A DNA stretch of 64,000 nucleotides, taken from Paralcaligenes ureilyticus (GTDB taxonomy: Bacteria > Pseudomonadota > Gammaproteobacteria > Burkholderiales > Burkholderiaceae_B). Where the stretch lies: positions 1 through 64,000 of the forward strand of contig NZ_SMAJ01000011.1 of NCBI RefSeq assembly GCF_004346225.1, written 5' to 3'. Of this stretch, positions 22,130 through 32,028 are shown piece by piece; within the stretch, counting starts at the first letter, position 1; each line of letters starts with the position of its first letter. Below the pieces are notes generated by a model. It was not told the origin of the DNA and did not search any database. It saw nothing but the letters and a program-made list of their open reading frames with translations. Position numbers and translations under genes: made by a program.

Positions 22130-23089
22130 ATGAACCTTCCTACCTATGACGATGTTATTGCCGCCGCCGATCGCCTTGAAAACCAGGCGCACCAAACCCC
22201 TGTTTTCACCTCGCGCACGGTTAACGAAGAGCTGGGCGCCGAAGTATTTTTCAAGTGCGAAAATTTTCAGCGCATGGGCGCCTTCAAGTTTCGCGGCGCG
22301 TTCAACGCCTTGTCGCGTTTCGACCCGAGCCAGCGCAAGGGCGGGGTGCTGGCATTTTCATCGGGCAATCATGCGCAGGCCATTTCGCTCGCCGCGCGAA
22401 TTCTGGGTATTGCCGCCACCATCGTCATGCCCCAGGATGCACCGGCCGCCAAGATGGCGGCCACCAAAGGCTATGGCGGCCAGGTGGTGCTCTACGATCG
22501 CTATACCGAAGATCGCGAAGCCATTTGTCGCAAGCTGGCCGATGAAAAGGGCATGACCCTGATTCCTCCTTACGATCATCCGGATGTCTTGGCCGGCCAG
22601 GGCACGGCCGCCCGCGAATTGTTCAACGAAGTTGGCGAGCTCGATTCGTTGTTCGCGCCCCTGGGCGGCGGCGGCCTGTTGTCCGGATCGGCGCTCGCCG
22701 CGCGTGCGCTGTCGCCCGCGTGCAAGGTATACGGCGTGGAGCCCGAAGCCGGCAACGACGGCCAGCAGTCCTTTCGCACTGGCTCCATCGTGCATATCGA
22801 CACGCCGCGTACCATTGCCGACGGCGCGCAAACCCAGCATTTAAGCCCGCTGACCTTTGCCATTATCCGTCGCGATGTCGACGACATCCTCACGGCAAGC
22901 GACTCCGAGCTGATCGAGTGCATGCGGTTTTTTGCCGCGCGCATGAAAATGCTGGTCGAGCCCACCGGCTGCCTGGGGTTTGCGGCGGCGCGCCGGATCA
23001 AGGACCAGATCAAGGGCCAGCGTGTCGGCGTGGTGCTGAGCGGCGGCAATGTCGACCTGACGCGCCTGTGCGAATTGCTCACGCCGTAG
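22130..23089 (+). CDS. PLP-dependent threonine/serine dehydratase (catabolic type)
   Basis: This 319-residue fold-type-II enzyme has the Schiff-base lysine in GAFKFRGAFNAL, the substrate loop SSGNHAQAIS and the phosphate-binding PLGGGGLLSG. It lacks an ACT domain, so it is a short catabolic threonine dehydratase, hydroxyaspartate ammonia-lyase or serine racemase relative. The ATG at 22130 is chosen over an in-frame TTG at 22112. Its TAG stop lies inside the GTAGC of a REP element. It starts 22 bases after the dienelactone hydrolase gene and is probably cotranscribed. Confidence 0.88.
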   Translation: MNLPTYDDVIAAADRLENQAHQTPVFTSRTVNEELGAEVFFKCENFQRMGAFKFRGAFNALSRFDPSQRKGGVLAFSSGNHAQAISLAARILGIAATIVMPQDAPAAKMAATKGYGGQVVLYDRYTEDREAICRKLADEKGMTLIPPYDHPDVLAGQGTAARELFNEVGELDSLFAPLGGGGLLSGSALAARALSPACKVYGVEPEAGNDGQQSFRTGSIVHIDTPRTIADGAQTQHLSPLTFAIIRRDVDDILTASDSELIECMRFFAARMKMLVEPTGCLGFAAARRIKDQIKGQRVGVVLSGGNVDLTRLCELLTP

Positions 23090-23118: not shown

Positions 23119-26100
23119 TCACCACATGATTCGCAGTCCCATGCTCGCCGTCGTGGCGCGCCAGTGGCCGGCCGTTTCTTGCGCCACGTCGGCATACACA
23201 CTGACGCGTTGATTGATCTGGCCGCTTAGCCCCAAGCCCACGGTGACGGTTGTGCGGCCGACCGCTGCGCCTTTGATGTCCATGGAGGTGCCGAGCAGGG
23301 TTGTATTCAGGGTGGGACGCTTGTCGAGCAGTTCATGGCTGACGCGCGCTCGCAACGATGCGCGCCAGTCCATGGCGGCCGTCTTGAAGGGGATGCTGCC
23401 CGCCAGCCCCGCGGAAGGAGCGAGCGATTGCAGGGTGCCCGCTGAGATGCCCAGTACGGCGGCCGATGCGGCGCCGTTTTCAGAGGCCGCGAGATGGCGG
23501 CTGGCAAGGTATTGCAAACCCAGCGACGCTTCAAGTCGCGGGCCGTCGCCTTCCAGTCTCCAGCCCGTCTGGCCTTCCAGCGTTAGATTGCGGCTGCGCA
23601 GATCGGCGCGATAGACGCCGCCGATGCCTGGCAGGTTCACGTTGCGCCGGGCAGATATCTGGCCGATGCCAAAGCCGGCGGCGCCTTCCACGAACCAGCC
23701 GTCTCGTTCGCGGCTGCCGTAGGCCATCAGTTGCCAGTTTTGCAGACTGCCGCTGCCCATGCCCTGAGTGACTGTGGGCCTGCTGTCGGCGTAGCCCAGA
23801 GAGATGCCGGCCACCGCGCCGGGCGCCAGGCGCCGCTCGAAGCCGACCATAATGCCATTGGCCGTATCGTCGTAACCGTAGCCCAGGCTATCGTCTTTCT
23901 GGTGGCTATTGCGTTGCAGGACATAGGCCCATGCCGAACTGTCGCTTTTGCCGTCGATCGCGCGGGTTTGGACGCCGCGTTCATCGCGCCGGCTGGTTCC
24001 GACCAGATCCATGAGTTGTCGCGTCAGCATCTTGCTGTTGTTCATATCCGACCAGAGCAATTGGGCATGGCTGACACCGCTTAATTGATCCAGGGTGGGA
24101 GCCAGTTGCGTGGCGCCAACGGGTGAGAGCGCATCGAATAAAGCCTGGCTGCCGCCAGGCGCGCGCACGCCCGCCGCTGGCCGGATGCGCTCCAGCGCGC
24201 CGCCTACCCGTTGCCGATTGGCGTTGGTGGGAATCCCCAGCACGTCCAGGCCGGTATAGGAAGCCGGAGTCACGTAAAGCTGCACTGCCTGGCTGCCATA
24301 TACCGTATCGAAGCGCGAGCCCGGCAACAGCCCGCTGGCCGGCTGGGTGAGCCCGCTATAGCTGCCTGACACCCCGCCTGCTGCCTGGACGACCGTGAAG
24401 CCCTGGCCTAGCGCGGGGGTGTAGATATTGCTGGCCGCGCCGGTGATGCCGCGCAGAATTGGCGTGATCTGGCCGTTGGCGGTGTAGGTATTGGCCAGGC
24501 CGTTGACTACGAGGCGCGAATAATTGCCTGGGCCGTTGGCCGTTCCCGTGCCGTCTATATCGACGGCAAAAGAGCTGCCCGGCATCTGCGTGACGGGGCC
24601 GTTGACGGTCATGGTGCCGGGTGAGTTGCCGGGATAAAGTCTGCCCCGCACGGTGAGCGGACCGTTGATGAGGCCCGTGCCGCGCAGCGTGATGCTCGCG
24701 GGTACATTCATGGGGCCGTTCCAGATTGCGTTCATGTGCAGGTCGCCGGCAATTTGCAGTGGGTGTCCCAGAAAGGTAAGCGCGCCGCTGCCGTTGATGC
24801 TTCCTGCAAAGGGAATGTCGTTGTTGCCGGTGTCCAGCGTGCCTCCGCCCAGATATACGGTAAGCGGGCGATTGAATGTTCCGGATGGGTTCAGGGCAAA
24901 GTTGTCTTGCAGATTCAGACGCCCTGCATCAAAGCCGATGCCGCCGCCGGCTGCGCCCAGCTGACTATCTTTGGATGCGGCCAGTGTGGCGCCGGAAATG
25001 AACGTCCCCCCGGTATACGAATTGTCTGTAGTCAGTGTGTATAGGCCGCCACCCGTGATGGTGAGCTGGCCGGTGCCGCCGATAGGCTGGCTGCCTTGTG
25101 CGACGGCCAGGCGGCCGGTGTCGAGCGCGCCCCCGCCTGCCATGAGATTGATTGGGCGGTTCAGGCTGAACGGGGCCAGAAAGCGCAGGGTGCCGCTGTC
25201 AAAGCTCAGGCCGCTGCCGCCAACGCCCAGGTTGGCGTCTGAATCGACCAGCGTCAGGCCGCCATTCAAGGACGTACCGCCGCTGTAGGTAGCCGTGGCA
25301 CCTGCCAGGCTGAGCGTGCCGGCGCCCCGTTTGATCAGGGGGCGGCCAAACGCGTGACCGTCAAGTGTCTGGCCATCGGTCAACTGGGCGTTGACAGGCA
25401 GGCTGTCAAAGCCGGCCTGGCCAAAAATCAGTTGCGTAGCTTCGGGAAAATAAGTGGTCACGTCAGCCAGCGCGAAAGCGCCGCGGCCCATGGTGTAGGC
25501 CAGCAACACATCATCTTCGGTGGAGTAGTCCAGGCCGAATACCTGGCTGTTGGGAATTTTCCCCAGCCGGGTGTCCCAGATGAAACTGGTGGCGTCGGCC
25601 GGGCCGCGCAAGGTATATAGCCAGTTGCCGCCGGCCACGTTATGGGTGCCTGCGGCGACCAGGGCCGATACGCCGTTGTAATCGATGTGATCCAGGCCGC
25701 GCCGCTCGTTGAAGCCTGCAGGCAGATTGCCGCTGATGTCGGTAAAGGCATAGGCGGTATTGCTGGTGGGTGCCCCGCGCAAAATATGGGTGCCGTCGCT
25801 GGCGTAAACCCGCCCGGTCCCCAGGCTCCGGTCAAAGAGCGCCGCCTGAATGCCCGTGCTGCTGTATATGGACGTTGGCACCGTGGTATTGACGTCCGGG
25901 GTGTAGTACAGGTCGCCGTTGACGGCAAGGTCGTTGCGATAGCCCGTGCCGCCAAGCAGGGCGTCGGCATTGTTGTGGGCGCCGTAGGCAAGTGAAATGA
26001 AGCCCAGGTTGGTCGGGCCGGTGTTGGTGAGTTTTTGCGTGACGATCCGGACCGGATTCTGACTGTCTTCCACCATCGGGTCCTGGCCGGCATACAGATC

Positions 26101-27966
26101 GTAGCCGCCTATCGCAAAGCGGGTTGGGTCGACTCTATTCAAGACAAAGCTGGGGTAGAACGGTATGACCTCAATGCCTGTCTGGGTTTGAGCCGCCGCG
26201 GCCTGGCCCTTGGTGACGGGCTTTTTGGGTCGCGGGGGATCGATTTGACCCGTGCCGTCGCCAAAGCGCAGGAACTGCCCGTTTTGTTCTATGCCCAGAT
26301 CCAGCGTTGTGGCGGCTATTCCTTCGTTTGCGGCATCGGTTCGAATGCGCGTGGGGCCTCCCAGGTGCTGCGAACTGATGTAGTTTGCCGCATAGCGCTG
26401 GCCGTTTAACTGCCAGTTGGAATTGACCGCGGCAATGCCGCCGTCGCCGCCGGCCACGACGGCATAGGTGGGGTTGCCTGCGCGCAACTGGATGGTCGAG
26501 CCGTTGTCCTGCATGGCGGCAACGGTGGTGTGGCTTAGCGCGTTCCAGGCCGCGTCGTGGATTTCCCCCGTTTGCAGATTGCCGTTCAAAGACTGCCAGA
26601 TGCCGTAGCGGCTTGTCGGGTCGGTGCGCCGGTAAATGCCGCCGTCGTCGGTCTGCAGCAGATTGCCGGCCGCATCGATCATCATGAAGCGCGAATCGGC
26701 GTGAGGGCCCGAGCCATTGGCCGTGTAATCATCGGTGATGGCTTCCCATACGGTTTGGCCGGTGGCGGGGTTGAACTTGCCGCGAAACAGGCGGCCGCTG
26801 TAGGTGCGCGCGCCGATGGAGGTGGGCAGGCCATCGCCGACCAGCGCGCCGGGGCCCTGTGCATCGCCGCTCAGGTACACCACGGTGGAGTCGTTGGGGT
26901 CGACCAGCAGCGCGCCATGCAGCCCGAATTGCCCCGAGGTGTAGATGCCCCACTGAACCGTCGTGCCGTCGGGCAGATATTCGGTGGTGCCTACCGACCC
27001 CATGCTGGTCCAGGACTGGCCCTGATTGGAGGAGCGGTATACCGTGACGGGCGGGTTTTCCTTTAATAGCCCGCTGGGGGTGCTGACGGGGCTGATGACG
27101 CTGGCCACAACGGTTCCGTCGCGGGCGATGGACAGCATGATGTCCTGGGTCAGAGGCATATTCGCGCTGGCGGGCTTGAGGATGGGCAAGGCCGACAGCC
27201 AGGTCCAGCTGGCCCCACCGTCGTCAGAGCGGTATACCCCTTTGGGATCCTGGTAAATGCCGGCGCTATCCTTGCCCGCCACGACCGCGGCGTAGTAGCG
27301 GTTGGCGTTGTTGGGGTCGTTCACCAGGCTGGTGATATTGCCGGCGGGCAGGCCGGTGCTGGCATTGGTGAATGTCGCGCCGCCGTCGGCGCTGCGCCAG
27401 ACGCCGGGGTCGTTTGGCGACGTCTTGATGCCTACTACGATCTGATTGCCGTTGGCAATAATTCGCGAGATATCCTTGCCCATCAGATCGTTGCCCAGAG
27501 GAGGCGACCAGGCCCCCGTGGTGGTGTCAAAGCGCACGATGCCGGTCGATGCGCCGCTTACGTTGTACGAGCTTTGCTTGCCAAAGCCCACCCATAAATA
27601 AGACGGGTCGCTCTGGTCGAAAGACATGGCGCCAATCGACAGGGACGGGAGATCGTCGCCCAGCGGTTTCCAGGTAGCTCCGCCGTCCACGGTCTGCCAG
27701 ACGCCGCCGTTGACCGCGCTGGCAAACAGCATGTTGGGATGGGTGGGGCTGGGCAGCACGGCCTGCATGGCTCCCGCTACCGGATTGTTGCCGATGCCTA
27801 CGACGTTGGTCGAGGCGCCGCCAGGCGTGGCCATGATGGTGGGAGAAGGGCCTACGGGCATCCACGATTGCGCCCGGGCAGGGGAGTATGGAATCGACAA
27901 GGCCACGACAAGCGCCGCGAACAGAGTGGCAAAATTCGGGTGTTGTCGTGGGGTGCGAAGAATCAT
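23119..27966 (-). CDS. Autotransporter with BNR-type propeller passenger
   Basis: This 1615-residue type Va secreted protein has four parts. Residues 1-33 are a signal peptide ending ARAQS. Residues about 40-830 hold BNR/sialidase-like repeats (TVDGGATW, SADGGATF, SDDGGASW, SSNQGQSW), suggesting one or two beta-propellers. Residues about 860-1100 hold passenger-associated beta-strand repeats (YSGGTSLNGGLTL, YTGGTFISGATL). About 1340-1615 is the outer-membrane beta-barrel, ending in Trp. Sialidase catalytic residues are not evident, so a binding role is as likely as an enzymatic one. It is likely surface-exposed. Confidence 0.9.
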   Translation of the reverse strand: MILRTPRQHPNFATLFAALVVALSIPYSPARAQSWMPVGPSPTIMATPGGASTNVVGIGNNPVAGAMQAVLPSPTHPNMLFASAVNGGVWQTVDGGATWKPLGDDLPSLSIGAMSFDQSDPSYLWVGFGKQSSYNVSGASTGIVRFDTTTGAWSPPLGNDLMGKDISRIIANGNQIVVGIKTSPNDPGVWRSADGGATFTNASTGLPAGNITSLVNDPNNANRYYAAVVAGKDSAGIYQDPKGVYRSDDGGASWTWLSALPILKPASANMPLTQDIMLSIARDGTVVASVISPVSTPSGLLKENPPVTVYRSSNQGQSWTSMGSVGTTEYLPDGTTVQWGIYTSGQFGLHGALLVDPNDSTVVYLSGDAQGPGALVGDGLPTSIGARTYSGRLFRGKFNPATGQTVWEAITDDYTANGSGPHADSRFMMIDAAGNLLQTDDGGIYRRTDPTSRYGIWQSLNGNLQTGEIHDAAWNALSHTTVAAMQDNGSTIQLRAGNPTYAVVAGGDGGIAAVNSNWQLNGQRYAANYISSQHLGGPTRIRTDAANEGIAATTLDLGIEQNGQFLRFGDGTGQIDPPRPKKPVTKGQAAAAQTQTGIEVIPFYPSFVLNRVDPTRFAIGGYDLYAGQDPMVEDSQNPVRIVTQKLTNTGPTNLGFISLAYGAHNNADALLGGTGYRNDLAVNGDLYYTPDVNTTVPTSIYSSTGIQAALFDRSLGTGRVYASDGTHILRGAPTSNTAYAFTDISGNLPAGFNERRGLDHIDYNGVSALVAAGTHNVAGGNWLYTLRGPADATSFIWDTRLGKIPNSQVFGLDYSTEDDVLLAYTMGRGAFALADVTTYFPEATQLIFGQAGFDSLPVNAQLTDGQTLDGHAFGRPLIKRGAGTLSLAGATATYSGGTSLNGGLTLVDSDANLGVGGSGLSFDSGTLRFLAPFSLNRPINLMAGGGALDTGRLAVAQGSQPIGGTGQLTITGGGLYTLTTDNSYTGGTFISGATLAASKDSQLGAAGGGIGFDAGRLNLQDNFALNPSGTFNRPLTVYLGGGTLDTGNNDIPFAGSINGSGALTFLGHPLQIAGDLHMNAIWNGPMNVPASITLRGTGLINGPLTVRGRLYPGNSPGTMTVNGPVTQMPGSSFAVDIDGTGTANGPGNYSRLVVNGLANTYTANGQITPILRGITGAASNIYTPALGQGFTVVQAAGGVSGSYSGLTQPASGLLPGSRFDTVYGSQAVQLYVTPASYTGLDVLGIPTNANRQRVGGALERIRPAAGVRAPGGSQALFDALSPVGATQLAPTLDQLSGVSHAQLLWSDMNNSKMLTRQLMDLVGTSRRDERGVQTRAIDGKSDSSAWAYVLQRNSHQKDDSLGYGYDDTANGIMVGFERRLAPGAVAGISLGYADSRPTVTQGMGSGSLQNWQLMAYGSRERDGWFVEGAAGFGIGQISARRNVNLPGIGGVYRADLRSRNLTLEGQTGWRLEGDGPRLEASLGLQYLASRHLAASENGAASAAVLGISAGTLQSLAPSAGLAGSIPFKTAAMDWRASLRARVSHELLDKRPTLNTTLLGTSMDIKGAAVGRTTVTVGLGLSGQINQRVSVYADVAQETAGHWRATTASMGLRIMW

Positions 27967-28284
27967 GCGGCGTCCCGTATGGCAAGGCTGGTGTTTGAGG
28001 GGATGGGTGTCCCGGTTTCAGGCTCGTCAGGCGATATCAGGCGTGAAATCGCATTCCAAATTGTTTCTGAAAAGAAACAATACATATCTTTATATGTATC
28101 TTAACATTTCTTTAGCGCTAAATGGTTACTTTTTGCACTTGATATATACCTGATGGCAGCTTTGGCCGATGGCTCAAATCCATCTTCTATTAGGGTAATT
28201 TTTGATGGTTCACATACCTTTTTCAGAATGTGATGTATAACGTCCCACAGCATAAAAATGCTACCCCCGCTGCGGGTACGTTCT
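27967..28284. promoter_or_regulatory. Autotransporter upstream region with two adjacent palindromes
   Basis: This gap holds TTGTTTC-TGAAAA-GAAACAA (28061-28080), directly followed by TACATAT-CTTT-ATATGTA (28081-28098), 95-132 bases before the autotransporter ATG. They could be operator sites or stem-loops in the leader. I see no further gene in it; short frames at 28101-28310 are not convincing. Confidence 0.5.
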
Positions 28285-28351
28285 GTAGCGGCACCCCTTG
28301 TGGGTGCCATCGATGCGCTACAAAAATGGCAGCCACAAGGGCTGCCACTAC
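28285..28351. repeat. REPIN: inverted REP pair with outward GTAG ends
   Basis: A plus-strand CACC-type copy (28285-28310) and a minus-strand AGCC-type copy (28326-28351) are separated by 15 bases, reading GTAG ... CTAC over 67 bases. It lies downstream of the FadR-type gene's 3' end. It has the same layout as the unit at 13112-13180 but with the two stem types swapped. Confidence 0.85.
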
Positions 28352-28402
28352 ATTGCTGCCGCGACCCCCAGCATTTCGGCCGGAATCTGGACCTGTCGCA
28401 GT

Positions 28403-29158
28403 TCAGCCTTTCGCCGATTCGTGCGTCATCTGTTCGTACGCTTTGCGCAGGCGCTCGCGGCTATTGGTCAGATGGGTGCGCATGGCGGCGCGTGCGGCCT
28501 CGGGGTCGCGCCGTTCGATGGCGGCATATATATTTTCGTGCTCGCGGTTGACGCGCTGCAAGTAGATGCGTCGGTCATCCAGAGCCAGCTGAGCCGTGTC
28601 GATACGAGCCCGGGGGATCATGTTGTTGCCCAACTGGCGAAGAATGTCCTGAAAATACTGGTTTCCGGCGATGCTCGCCATCTTCAAATGAAAGGCCAAG
28701 TCGGCTGAAATGGCGCTGCCGTCGGCTTGATCGATATGTTTTTCGAAGTCGTCGAGCAAGGCGCTGAGCGCCAGTACGTCTTGATCGCTGCGGCGCACGG
28801 CGGCGAGCGCCGCGACTTCGGTTTCCAGGCCCAAACGCAGCTCCAGAACCGCCAGGGTGTCGAGCATGGTGAAAATGCCATCTGTCGCAATCTTGACCGC
28901 CTGGCCGGCGTTGGGCTCCAGCACGAAAGTGCCGATGCCGTGGCGGGTTTCGACCAGACCGGCCGCCTGCAGGCGCGAAATGGCTTCGCGCACGACGGTG
29001 CGGCTGACCGAGTGTTCGCGCATGATGTCCGATTCGGTGGGAAGCTTCGCGCCGGTGCTGAAACGGCCATTGCGGATATGTTCGGAGAACGCGTCGACTA
29101 CCTTGTCGGTCAGGCTGCGCGGGCGTTTTTTGGAAGAGGCACTGGAAGTCGTAGCCAT
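28403..29158 (-). CDS. FadR/GntR-family transcriptional regulator
   Basis: This 251-residue protein has an N-terminal winged helix (KLPTESDIMREHSVSRTVVREAISRL, about residues 39-64) and an all-helical FCD ligand domain (about 95-235) with His/Asp metal-site candidates. The ATG at 29158 replaces a much longer, unsupported upstream frame. It closely resembles the regulator at 61379-62125 (both have RTVVREAISRLQAAG and VETRHGIG), so it may sense a related sugar acid. No clear target operon adjoins it. Confidence 0.88.
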   Translation of the reverse strand: MATTSSASSKKRPRSLTDKVVDAFSEHIRNGRFSTGAKLPTESDIMREHSVSRTVVREAISRLQAAGLVETRHGIGTFVLEPNAGQAVKIATDGIFTMLDTLAVLELRLGLETEVAALAAVRRSDQDVLALSALLDDFEKHIDQADGSAISADLAFHLKMASIAGNQYFQDILRQLGNNMIPRARIDTAQLALDDRRIYLQRVNREHENIYAAIERRDPEAARAAMRTHLTNSRERLRKAYEQMTHESAKG

Positions 29159-29198
29159 TGCTGCACAGTATAAGCACATATGATGCCTGTCAATGCGA

Positions 29199-30092
29199 TT
29201 ATTTCTGGATGTGATCGGCCAGAAAATCAATGAGCGTACGCACTGAAGGCAGCAGGCCCCTGCGCGATGGGAATACCGCGTGCACGATCGCGCCCTGAGG
29301 AGTCCAGTCAGGAATGATGTCCACCAGGCGTCCTTCCTGCAGGTCCTTTTCCACCACCATGCACGGTAGTTGCACGACACCGATTCCCAGCAGGGCGGCC
29401 TGGCGCAGCGCCGTCATGTCTTCGGTGATATAGCGGGGGTGATGCGGTACTTCGGCGATAGCCCCATTGGGGCCGTTCAGCCGCCAGAGATGATCATGCT
29501 GCGATCCCCGCCAATCCATGCTGGGCAAGCCGCTCAAATCGGCCGGCGTCAGCCGTGATTTAAGCGCACCTGATAAACGTGGGCTGGCCACCAGCCGTTG
29601 TGGGCTGTCGGCCAATACCCGCATCACGAGATCGCTGCTTTCCAAAGGTGGGAAACGCACGCGTAGAGCCAGGTCCAGTCCTTCTCCCAACACATCTGCC
29701 TGCCGGTTTGCGGCATCAAGGTGCACCTGAACACGCGGGTTTTCAACCATGAAACGGCCGACCAGTTCGCCTATGCAGTAGTGCAGCAGGGTGGTGGGAC
29801 AGCTCATGCGCACAATGCCTTGCGGTTCTGACTGCATGCGCTGGACGGCCTCTGCGGCCGCTTCGGCTTCAATCAGCATGGCGACGCAATGGCGGTAGTA
29901 TTCCTGGCCCAGCTCGGTCACGAAAAAGTGCCGCGTCGATCGTTGTATCAGGCGAACACCGAGGCGTTCCTCAAGCTGGGATATGCGTCTGCTAAGTTTG
30001 GACTTTGGCATGTTCAAGGCCCGGCCCGCCGGCGCAAAGCCGCGGTGCTCGACGACCTGCGCGAAGTAGTAGAGATCGTTGAGATCTTCCAT
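29199..30092 (-). CDS. LysR-family transcriptional regulator
   Basis: This 297-residue regulator opens with MEDLNDLYYFAQVVEHRGFAP and has the helix-turn-helix LNMPKSKLSRRISQLEERLG (about residues 26-45), followed by the LysR effector domain. It is divergent from the first pirin gene, 100 bases away. This LysR-pirin pairing is common, and the regulator probably controls the pirins. Confidence 0.9.
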   Translation of the reverse strand: MEDLNDLYYFAQVVEHRGFAPAGRALNMPKSKLSRRISQLEERLGVRLIQRSTRHFFVTELGQEYYRHCVAMLIEAEAAAEAVQRMQSEPQGIVRMSCPTTLLHYCIGELVGRFMVENPRVQVHLDAANRQADVLGEGLDLALRVRFPPLESSDLVMRVLADSPQRLVASPRLSGALKSRLTPADLSGLPSMDWRGSQHDHLWRLNGPNGAIAEVPHHPRYITEDMTALRQAALLGIGVVQLPCMVVEKDLQEGRLVDIIPDWTPQGAIVHAVFPSRRGLLPSVRTLIDFLADHIQK

Positions 30093-30191
30093 TATTGTTC
30101 CTTAAATAGAACTCTGATGGCAATTTAACCGGTCTACCGCGAAAAATGTTGAGCCCCTATGATGGTATTCATGAACATCAGGAGAAACACT

Positions 30192-31064
30192 ATGAAAAAA
30201 ATTCTCGGCACCTATAGCAGCCCCAGACAGCATTGGGTGGGTGATGGCTTCCCGGTTCGCTCGCTATTTTCGTATGACACTTTGGGCAAGCACGTTAGCC
30301 CTTTTTTGCTGCTGGACTATGCGGGCCCGATGGATTTTGCCCCCGCCCAACGCCCGCGCGGCGTAGGCGAGCATCCGCATCGCGGCTTCGAGACAGTCAC
30401 GATTGTCTACAAGGGCGAAGTGGCGCACCGCGATTCGACCGGTAGCGGCGGCCTTATCGGCCCGGGCGATGTGCAATGGATGACGGCGGCCTCGGGCATC
30501 CTGCATGAAGAGTTCCATTCGCCTGAGTTCACCCGTACGGGTGGCTCTCTGGAAATGGTGCAGCTTTGGGTAAACCTTCCCGCCAAGGACAAAATGAGTG
30601 CGCCGGGCTACCAGACGATACTCGACGGCGACATCCCTTCGCTTGAATTGGCCGGCAACGCCGGGCAAGTGCGAGTCATCGCGGGCAACTACAAGGGGCA
30701 TCAGGGGCCGGCCAAGACGTTCACGCCGATCGATGTGTGGGACTTGCGTTTGCGGGCTGGCCACACGACCGAATTGATGGCGCCCGAGGGCCGCACCTTT
30801 GCGCTGGTCGTGCTGCATGGTACTGTGCTTGTCAATGGGCAACAGCTCGCGCGTGAAGCGCAAATGGTCATGCTCGACCGCGCTGGAACCGATGTGTCTC
30901 TGGAGGCCAACAGCGATGCGACGGTGCTGGTGTTAAGCGGCGAACCCATAGAAGAACCGATAGTAGGCTATGGTCCGTTCGTGATGAACACGCAGGCTGA
31001 AATCCAGCAAGCCATCGAAGACTTCAACAGTGGCCGGTTTGGCCAGATGCCGCAGGCGGCGTAA
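30192..31064 (+). CDS. Pirin family protein
   Basis: This 290-residue bicupin has the pirin metal-binding run GEHPHRGFETVT (His cluster near residues 60-65), the later GDVQWMTAASGILHEE, and the pirin C-terminal domain. CAGGAGA precedes ATG 30192; the upstream ATG in frame lacks this. Pirins bind iron and some have quercetin 2,3-dioxygenase activity; the physiological role is unclear. A second pirin follows after 28 bases. Confidence 0.9.
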   Translation: MKKILGTYSSPRQHWVGDGFPVRSLFSYDTLGKHVSPFLLLDYAGPMDFAPAQRPRGVGEHPHRGFETVTIVYKGEVAHRDSTGSGGLIGPGDVQWMTAASGILHEEFHSPEFTRTGGSLEMVQLWVNLPAKDKMSAPGYQTILDGDIPSLELAGNAGQVRVIAGNYKGHQGPAKTFTPIDVWDLRLRAGHTTELMAPEGRTFALVVLHGTVLVNGQQLAREAQMVMLDRAGTDVSLEANSDATVLVLSGEPIEEPIVGYGPFVMNTQAEIQQAIEDFNSGRFGQMPQAA

Positions 31065-31092
31065 ATCCGCACATCATCCAGGAGAAATGCGA

Positions 31093-32028
31093 ATGAGCAC
31101 TAATGAAACCCAGCCTGCGCCATCGGGCCAGCAGGCCGATGGCGAACCAGCCATACAGCGCGTGATCGCACGCAGCGCCGAAATTGGCGGCGGCATTTCG
31201 GTCAATCGCCTGATGCCGTCGCGACAGCGCAGGATGATCGGCGCCTGGTGTTTCCTGGATCATGCCGGCCCGGCCGTTTTCAGCCCCGGCGCGGGCATGC
31301 GCGTGGGGCCGCACCCGCATACGGGCTTGCAGACGTTCACGTGGATGATCGAGGGTGAGGTTCTGCACCGCGATAGCCTGGGCAATGTTCAGGTCATACG
31401 CCCCGGCCAGGTCAATCTGATGACGGCCGGACGAGGCATCACTCACACCGAGGAATCATTGCCGGGGGAAAACAAGCTGCACGCGGCTCAGTTGTGGATT
31501 GCTTTGCCGTCCAAGGACAAGGACTGCGAGCCGGCCTTCGATCATCATCCGGATCTGCCCGTGTGGGATGCGCAGGGTTGCCGTTTTACCTTGTTGGCCG
31601 GCCGCTATGAAGGGCGTAGCGCCGCGGCCAAAACGTACTCGCCGCTGGTGGGAATCGATGTGTTCAGCGCGCAGGGCGGCGCTGTCGAACTGACGCTGGA
31701 TCCCGCGTTCGAATATGGTGTATTGCCTTTGACGGGCCATGTTTCGATTGATCAGGAAAGTTTTGCCGCCAACGAACTGGCTTATCTGGGGTCGGGATCA
31801 ACGCGTGCGAACCTGCATTTTTCGGCTGATAGCCGGGCTATTTTGATTGGCGGCGAACCCTATCGGGAAGAAATTCTGCTGTGGTGGAATTTCGTGGGCC
31901 ACAGCAAATCCGAAATTGCCCAGGCCCAGCACGAATGGGAAGCGGGCGGCGCCCGCTTTGGGCGCGTCGATGGCTACGATGGCGCGCCCCTGGTGGCTCC
32001 CGCTTTGCCGTGGCCGGGTTTTGCCTGA
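31093..32028 (+). CDS. Pirin family protein (second copy)
   Basis: This 311-residue bicupin has the metal motif GPHPHTGLQTFTWM and GQVNLMTAGRGITHTEES. It differs strongly from its upstream neighbour, so the pair is not a recent duplication. AGGAG lies 8 bases before ATG 31093; an ATG two codons earlier is too close to that site. It is probably cotranscribed with the first pirin under the divergent LysR regulator. Confidence 0.9.
   Translation: MSTNETQPAPSGQQADGEPAIQRVIARSAEIGGGISVNRLMPSRQRRMIGAWCFLDHAGPAVFSPGAGMRVGPHPHTGLQTFTWMIEGEVLHRDSLGNVQVIRPGQVNLMTAGRGITHTEESLPGENKLHAAQLWIALPSKDKDCEPAFDHHPDLPVWDAQGCRFTLLAGRYEGRSAAAKTYSPLVGIDVFSAQGGAVELTLDPAFEYGVLPLTGHVSIDQESFAANELAYLGSGSTRANLHFSADSRAILIGGEPYREEILLWWNFVGHSKSEIAQAQHEWEAGGARFGRVDGYDGAPLVAPALPWPGFA

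Follow-up and report, generated by a model that had tools for sequence, protein, structure and literature searches.

Introduction

Autotransporter passengers are sorted, in a 2022 review, into those that are a helix only, those in which an enzyme is placed on a helix, and those in which an enzyme is present without a helix, and the same text counts five classes of characterised autotransporter enzymes, namely proteases, esterases, an aminopeptidase, an acid phosphatase, and one sialidase (PMC9289746). In Ssp, the subtilase enzyme sits atop a PATR-bearing beta-helix (PMC9977779). Propeller passengers are already in print: NanB (PMC5447721) and, by prediction, XatA (PMC3426408). Outside the autotransporters, GH74 enzymes are described as holding polysaccharide in a cleft between two seven-bladed propellers (PMC9103125). 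Here we analyse an autotransporter gene of Paralcaligenes ureilyticus, located in a window of 64,000 nucleotides (contig NZ_SMAJ01000011.1, positions 1 to 64,000), in which the head of the passenger is predicted to have a GH74-like fold.

Results

The ORF at 23119-27966 encodes a type Va autotransporter

The ORF at 23119-27966 on the reverse strand of the window, to which all features of the protein given below belong, has an ATG start, no internal stop, and a stop codon at 23119-23121, and encodes a protein of 1615 amino acids without a single cysteine. The source genome (4.37 Mb) contains one full copy of this gene and five PF03797 matches in all. By eye, the N terminus shows a hydrophobic stretch followed by ARAQ/S, which we read as a signal peptide of residues 1-33 (cleaved at about ...SPARAQ/SW; 27868-27966). 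The head, residues 34-834 (25465-27867), is followed by a head-stalk joint, residues 835-905 (25252-25464), which was delimited by Pfam and by conservation in four full-length autotransporters (see below) and includes the first PATR repeat (Pfam match at residues 877-906). The stalk, residues 906-1290 (24097-25251), is presumed to be a beta-helix with further beta-strand repeats; joint and stalk together contain two stretches each of TIGR02601 and PATR. The translocator barrel, residues 1345-1615 (23122-23934), matches PF03797 (Autotransporter beta-domain) over residues 1345-1594 with an E value of 8.6e-41 and 140.8 bits against a cut-off of 26, and its last residue is aromatic (Trp), as in type Va autotransporters. 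A single-sequence model of residues 850-1615 (stalk and barrel) reached a pLDDT of 33.0 and a pTM of 0.27. We conclude that the product is a type Va autotransporter with a putative signal peptide, a propeller head of ~800 residues, a PATR stalk, and a PF03797 barrel, and we infer that the head is displayed on the cell surface. The initial annotation had read the protein as an autotransporter with about 800 residues of propeller first, then beta-strand repeats, and then the barrel, and the PF03797, PATR, and TIGR02601 matches, together with the Asp-boxes and the fold search described below, bear out this order.

The autotransporter gene is alone on its strand. Its neighbours encode polA, a dienelactone hydrolase, a PLP enzyme, GntR and LysR regulators, and pirins; the PLP-enzyme gene runs towards the autotransporter gene and ends at 23089, and the GntR regulator lies at 28403-29380. 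An operon partner was rejected on the basis of these neighbours and of the flanking ORFs of three relatives, which share nothing among the 10 scanned. The G+C content is 63-66% across the gene and 56-61% in the other 1-kb intervals of 18-33 kb; so modest an increase is no proof of transfer. We also rejected a phage-type protein, as the protein has no PHROG family and no relative in viral contigs. In the congener G001, only 58 bases of contig remain after the PLP-enzyme gene, and the contig stops where the autotransporter gene would begin; the absence of the gene from G001 is therefore not usable. We note, further, a short interspersed repeat at 28260-28365, upstream of the gene, with 97 matches in G001, and two consecutive pirin genes at 30159-32028 on the forward strand.

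The head is predicted to be a GH74-like double propeller

Relatives of the head were fetched with the patterns [NA]GG[VI]W[RQ]T[LVT]D and G[VI]YRS[DN][DN][GA]G, and 80 of the 510 loci encoding a relative, across several phyla, were kept. The head of the window protein and 33 of the 80 loci were aligned with MAFFT (alignment A4; 21-37% identity to the window protein), and an AlphaFold model of residues 34-863 based on this alignment had a mean pLDDT of 72.7 and a pTM of 0.82, the second propeller being less well modelled, with many blocks at pLDDT 40-80. When the model was compared with the PDB using Foldseek, ranks 1-24 were GH74 enzymes. With VIA-align, ranks 1-18 were GH74 (Z 27.9-30.0, rmsd 5.1-6.3, 603-643 residues), and the best match, 6p2k_B, had a Z of 30.0 over 643 aligned residues at an rmsd of 5.2 and 17% identity. 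Unrelated single propellers came next in the list, with Z of about 26-27 over about 280 residues; because this margin in Z is small, it is the aligned length that sets GH74 apart. A sequence profile of the heads retrieved 59 PDB sequences, with GH74 chains down to an E value of 3.2e-39, and the 19 sequences below 1e-24 were 18 of the GH74 type and 3b7f, a single-propeller BNR protein. Further, an HMM-HMM alignment of the heads with the GH74-type ORFs L219, L220, L221, and L224, from named plasmids (for L222 and L223 the motif filter yielded no ORF), was co-linear over 619 columns with a probability of 99.85 and an E value of 8.5e-31.

Because the fold matches are led by GH74, we read the head as a tandem double propeller, in agreement, as judged by fold matches and not by blade counts, with the tandem double seven-bladed propeller of GH74. 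The first propeller would extend over about residues 64-455 (26602-27777), with limits set by the single propellers that matched the model over its residues 31 to about 422, and the second over about residues 456-834 (25465-26601), as indicated by the model, the fold search, and the HMM-HMM alignment. The head contains four strict Asp-box (BNR) motifs, at residues 92, 192, 247, and 312; in 2000 residue shuffles the mean was 0.10, and none had 4. We conclude that the head is, on the modelled structure, a GH74-like tandem of two propellers and not one sialidase- or Vps10-type propeller. The initial annotation had called the propeller BNR/VPS10-like. The Asp-boxes, and a Sortilin-Vps10 match below the cut-off, speak for that label, which does not extend to the predicted fold. 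It had also named structure prediction and a fold search as the check, with a known enzyme family as an outcome against its reading; that outcome is half of what was found, as the predicted fold belongs to an enzyme family and one of the two catalytic Asp residues is missing.

Four acidic positions are conserved and one GH74 catalytic position is lost

We take the GH74 catalytic pair to be the Asp of RTDIGG (D35/D60/D70) and the Asp of GDIGGF (D465/D480). The mutants D60A and D465N that appear in titles of PDB entries are consistent with this pair, 2cn2 and 2cn3 differ at the first of the two positions, and the GDIGGF position was also located in PDB GH74 chains. In the HMM-HMM alignment, the RTDIGG Asp of the first propeller falls on Val85 (27712-27714), and the GDIGGF Asp of the second propeller falls on Asp487 (in QDNG; 26506-26508); the head thus has the second catalytic Asp and not the first. 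The Val85 column of A4 holds Ala in 18 rows, Val in 9, Gly in 3, and Ser, Asn, and Cys in 1 each, with Asp in 0 of the 33 itemised rows (of 34). As the first GH74 catalytic Asp is absent, GH74 chemistry is not transferable to the head, which, by the aligned residues, is not a typical GH74 enzyme.

The columns of A4 that are acidic in at least 31 of the 34 rows are 104, 194, 213, 249, 424, 441, 487, 508, and 811, of which 194 and 249 fall inside Asp-boxes. Only 424, 441, 487, and 508, all inside one 85-residue stretch, are acidic in 34 of 34 rows, in an alignment with rows 21-37% identical to the window protein and with less certain columns in the second propeller. Asp424 (in HADSR; 26695-26697) and Asp441 (in DDGGIY; 26644-26646) are Asp in all 34 heads, and Asp487 and Asp508 (in GGDG; 26443-26445) are Asp or Glu in all 34. 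The same four positions are acidic in all four full-length autotransporters too, and the patterns used to fetch the loci do not cover them. In a spaced-motif scan, 101 of 118 ORFs passed, compared with 0 of 118 shuffled ones; the giant-protein heads L043-L045 and L047 failed, L044 having, by eye, a long insert there. Residues 424, 441, 487, and 508 may form one site.

The autotransporter form is rare and its heads group together

We searched for relatives at several taxonomic levels. At the level of the phylum, profile A3 matched 97 of 398 genomes at 0.001, mostly through other propeller proteins; this search yielded G560. In the class of the window, 10 of 321 genomes matched at 1e-20, and the whole model was covered only by the window's protein. 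In its family, 3 of 268 genomes matched at 1e-20: the source genome; G1660, with a 1546-aa autotransporter (PF03797 E 3.7e-30); and G1668, where a contig end leaves a 313-aa fragment that stops short of the barrel. G560, which like G794 belongs to another class, has a 1364-aa ORF that matches the window protein over 902 residues (31%, E 5.8e-79) and carries PF03797 (E 4.3e-42); among 385 genomes of this class, 12 matched at 1e-20, and the search yielded G794 (1603 aa, PF03797 E 7.7e-35). A first scan of genome contigs with the window head alone gave no match. With the head alone against 399 genomes of the order, 35 matched, the nearest being giant-protein modules in other families. The autotransporter form was thus seen in five genomes across the searches (full length in the source genome, G560, G794, and G1660, and as the G1668 fragment), and we therefore regard it as rare. 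Among 9 other long head-matching ORFs listed, only that of L209 has an autotransporter end; this check was given 15 loci, 6 of them without a listed ORF, and for L049, L058, L061, and L210 the ORF continues beyond the sequence that was fetched. None was found in 6 further long head-matching ORFs, of which that of L263 begins at the edge of its stretch.

In a midpoint-rooted tree of 25 heads, which contains neither G1668 nor GH74 rows, the four full-length autotransporter heads are split off together by a branch supported at 99/98. This grouping points to one origin of the autotransporter heads, the four forming one clade. They fall within a 13-row group that also holds the Planctomycetota modules L065 and L066 and giant-protein modules. 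Invariant residues in alignment A6 number 115 of 801 in the head, 26 of 71 in the joint, 23 of 385 in the stalk, and 12 of 271 in the barrel; the joint is thus the best conserved region of the four full-length autotransporters, and the barrel is the least conserved of the folded parts. This pattern fits a head-and-joint unit that would be under selection on a drifting carrier. Three of the relatives (G560, G794, and G1660) have a stalk that matches the EprS model, and in G560 the match continues into the barrel; all of these matches are far below the cut-off, and the window protein itself gave no match to that model. The protein had been called unusual at the outset, a description now tempered by other propeller passengers in print and by the autotransporter head being a family and not a single case.

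We also note the other settings of this propeller module. L065, from the Planctomycetota MAG KLAP214, has the closest non-autotransporter head in a named record (33% over query residues 2-798), followed by SdrD-B, FG-GAP, GEVED, and dockerin domains. L042, L044, and their relatives (G224, G064, G284, and G314), from another family of the order, are giant ORFs of ~10,000-13,000 aa with the same module. In L044 the module lies near the N terminus, and the start before it is, presumably, LEPR-XLL-like.

Discussion

We propose that the signal peptide would take the protein through the inner membrane, that the C-terminal barrel would insert in the outer membrane, and that folding of the PATR stalk would pull the passenger out, leaving the double propeller at the tip of the stalk, comparable with the subtilase domain in Ssp. 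There, the head would most likely bind and perhaps cleave polysaccharide in the inter-propeller cleft, with the conserved acids at 424, 441, 487, and 508 doing the work of the two catalytic Asp residues of GH74. The binding or cleavage of polysaccharide at the surface appears to us the most likely function, at about even odds, with a glycan as the presumed ligand, and we hold the whole proposal, from the displayed GH74-like double propeller to the four-acid group, to be as probable as it is not. The initial suggestion of a glycan-binding surface protein gains partial support from polysaccharide-holding GH74 folds and from the four conserved acids, and the head may be an adhesin or an enzyme. 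Against the proposal, no glycan-related gene was recognised in a scan of 10 neighbours, and the three relatives have none of their 10 scanned flanking ORFs in common; the four acids might just as well bind a structural metal ion, and the second propeller is modelled less well.

The double propeller could instead be a non-catalytic adhesin that binds host, matrix, or cell-surface ligands, with the acids holding structural calcium, and we regard this as possible, though short of probable. In line with it, the GH74 catalytic pair has lost one Asp, and the head's close relatives occur as modules within giant or dockerin/SdrD/TIG proteins and not as lone enzymes, which suits binding; calcium also stabilises Ssp (PMC9977779). 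However, two columns are Asp and two are Asp or Glu in 34 of 34 heads from several phyla, and one of these columns coincides with a GH74 catalytic position, all of which argues against a purely adhesive head. The same coincidence, with the best fold matches, is what a true GH74 xyloglucanase on the cell surface would have to offer. Val85 at the RTDIGG Asp, with no Asp in the 33 itemised rows, makes such an enzyme very unlikely, the head groups with module relatives in a tree that holds no GH74 rows, and we rejected the simple GH74 reading because one catalytic position is lost.

The Asp-boxes raise the question of the other propeller families. A receptor domain of the Vps10/sortilin type, binding peptides, would accord with the Sortilin-Vps10 Pfam match at residues 189-321 (E 5.5e-6) and with the account of Vps10 propellers as Asp-box propellers without enzyme activity (PMC2716378). 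We rejected this as highly improbable, however, because the match scores 25.9 bits against a curated cut-off of 33 and the protein has no Cys and hence no 10CC module. GH74 chains also head both fold lists, although the absence from the VIA list of sortilin, with the ten-bladed propeller of its family, excludes nothing. Another candidate is a sialidase autotransporter of the NanB type (Pasteurella multocida), which has the same plan on paper, an Asp-box propeller with PF03797 (PMC5447721), but BNR_2 matched only at E 0.056, the head is predicted to be a double propeller, and the RIP motif of GH33 sialidases, searched as RIP or [FYW]R(I)P, occurs nowhere in the 1615 aa. The sialidase catalytic residues are thus as little apparent as first reported, and we rejected a sialidase as having next to no chance.

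It is further conceivable, and to our minds doubtful, that the heads constitute an undescribed family of surface polysaccharide-active enzymes with a GH74-like fold, one catalytic Asp lost, and relocated acids, which would have been joined a single time to an autotransporter chassis of the subtilase type and then passed on as individual genes to two or more classes of Pseudomonadota. If the four-acid site were catalytic, it would give a testable activity to a family of double propellers with a wide distribution in bacteria; the nearest NCBI model, loosely named 'glycosylhydrolase', matched far below its cut-off. A literature search, covering few subscription papers, brought up no description of an autotransporter with a GH74-like head.

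Compared with the described systems, the window protein resembles the GH74 xyloglucanases (6p2k, 2cn2/2cn3, 1sqj) in a double-propeller fold that is co-linear over the whole head and in the second-propeller Asp and differs from them in Val85 at the first-propeller Asp and in its autotransporter stalk and barrel. The Vps10/BNR 'glycosyl hydrolase' double-propeller family (Bacteroidota, Acidobacteriota, and others) and the Planctomycetota and giant-protein modules have the same head and the four acids, whereas they continue into T9SS tails or SdrD/dockerin, TIG, or giant-protein regions and not into an autotransporter. NanB likewise combines a PF03797 barrel with an Asp-box propeller as its passenger (PMC5447721, PMC9289746), yet it is a BNR_2 type sialidase, unlike the GH74-like double propeller without a RIP motif predicted here. 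XatA of Xylella fastidiosa, compared by description, has a passenger that is predicted to be a beta-propeller (PMC3426408), though with LGxL repeats, another repeat type. Ssp and EprS share a globular head on a short PATR-bearing beta-helix with a barrel (PMC9977779), the head being a protease there and a double propeller here. By this analogy, the protein would belong to the second passenger type, an enzyme on a helix, or be its adhesive counterpart. A GH74-like head would extend the short list of non-helical autotransporter passengers, and a Cys-free double propeller of 800 residues would be a demanding test of how large folded heads pass the barrel.
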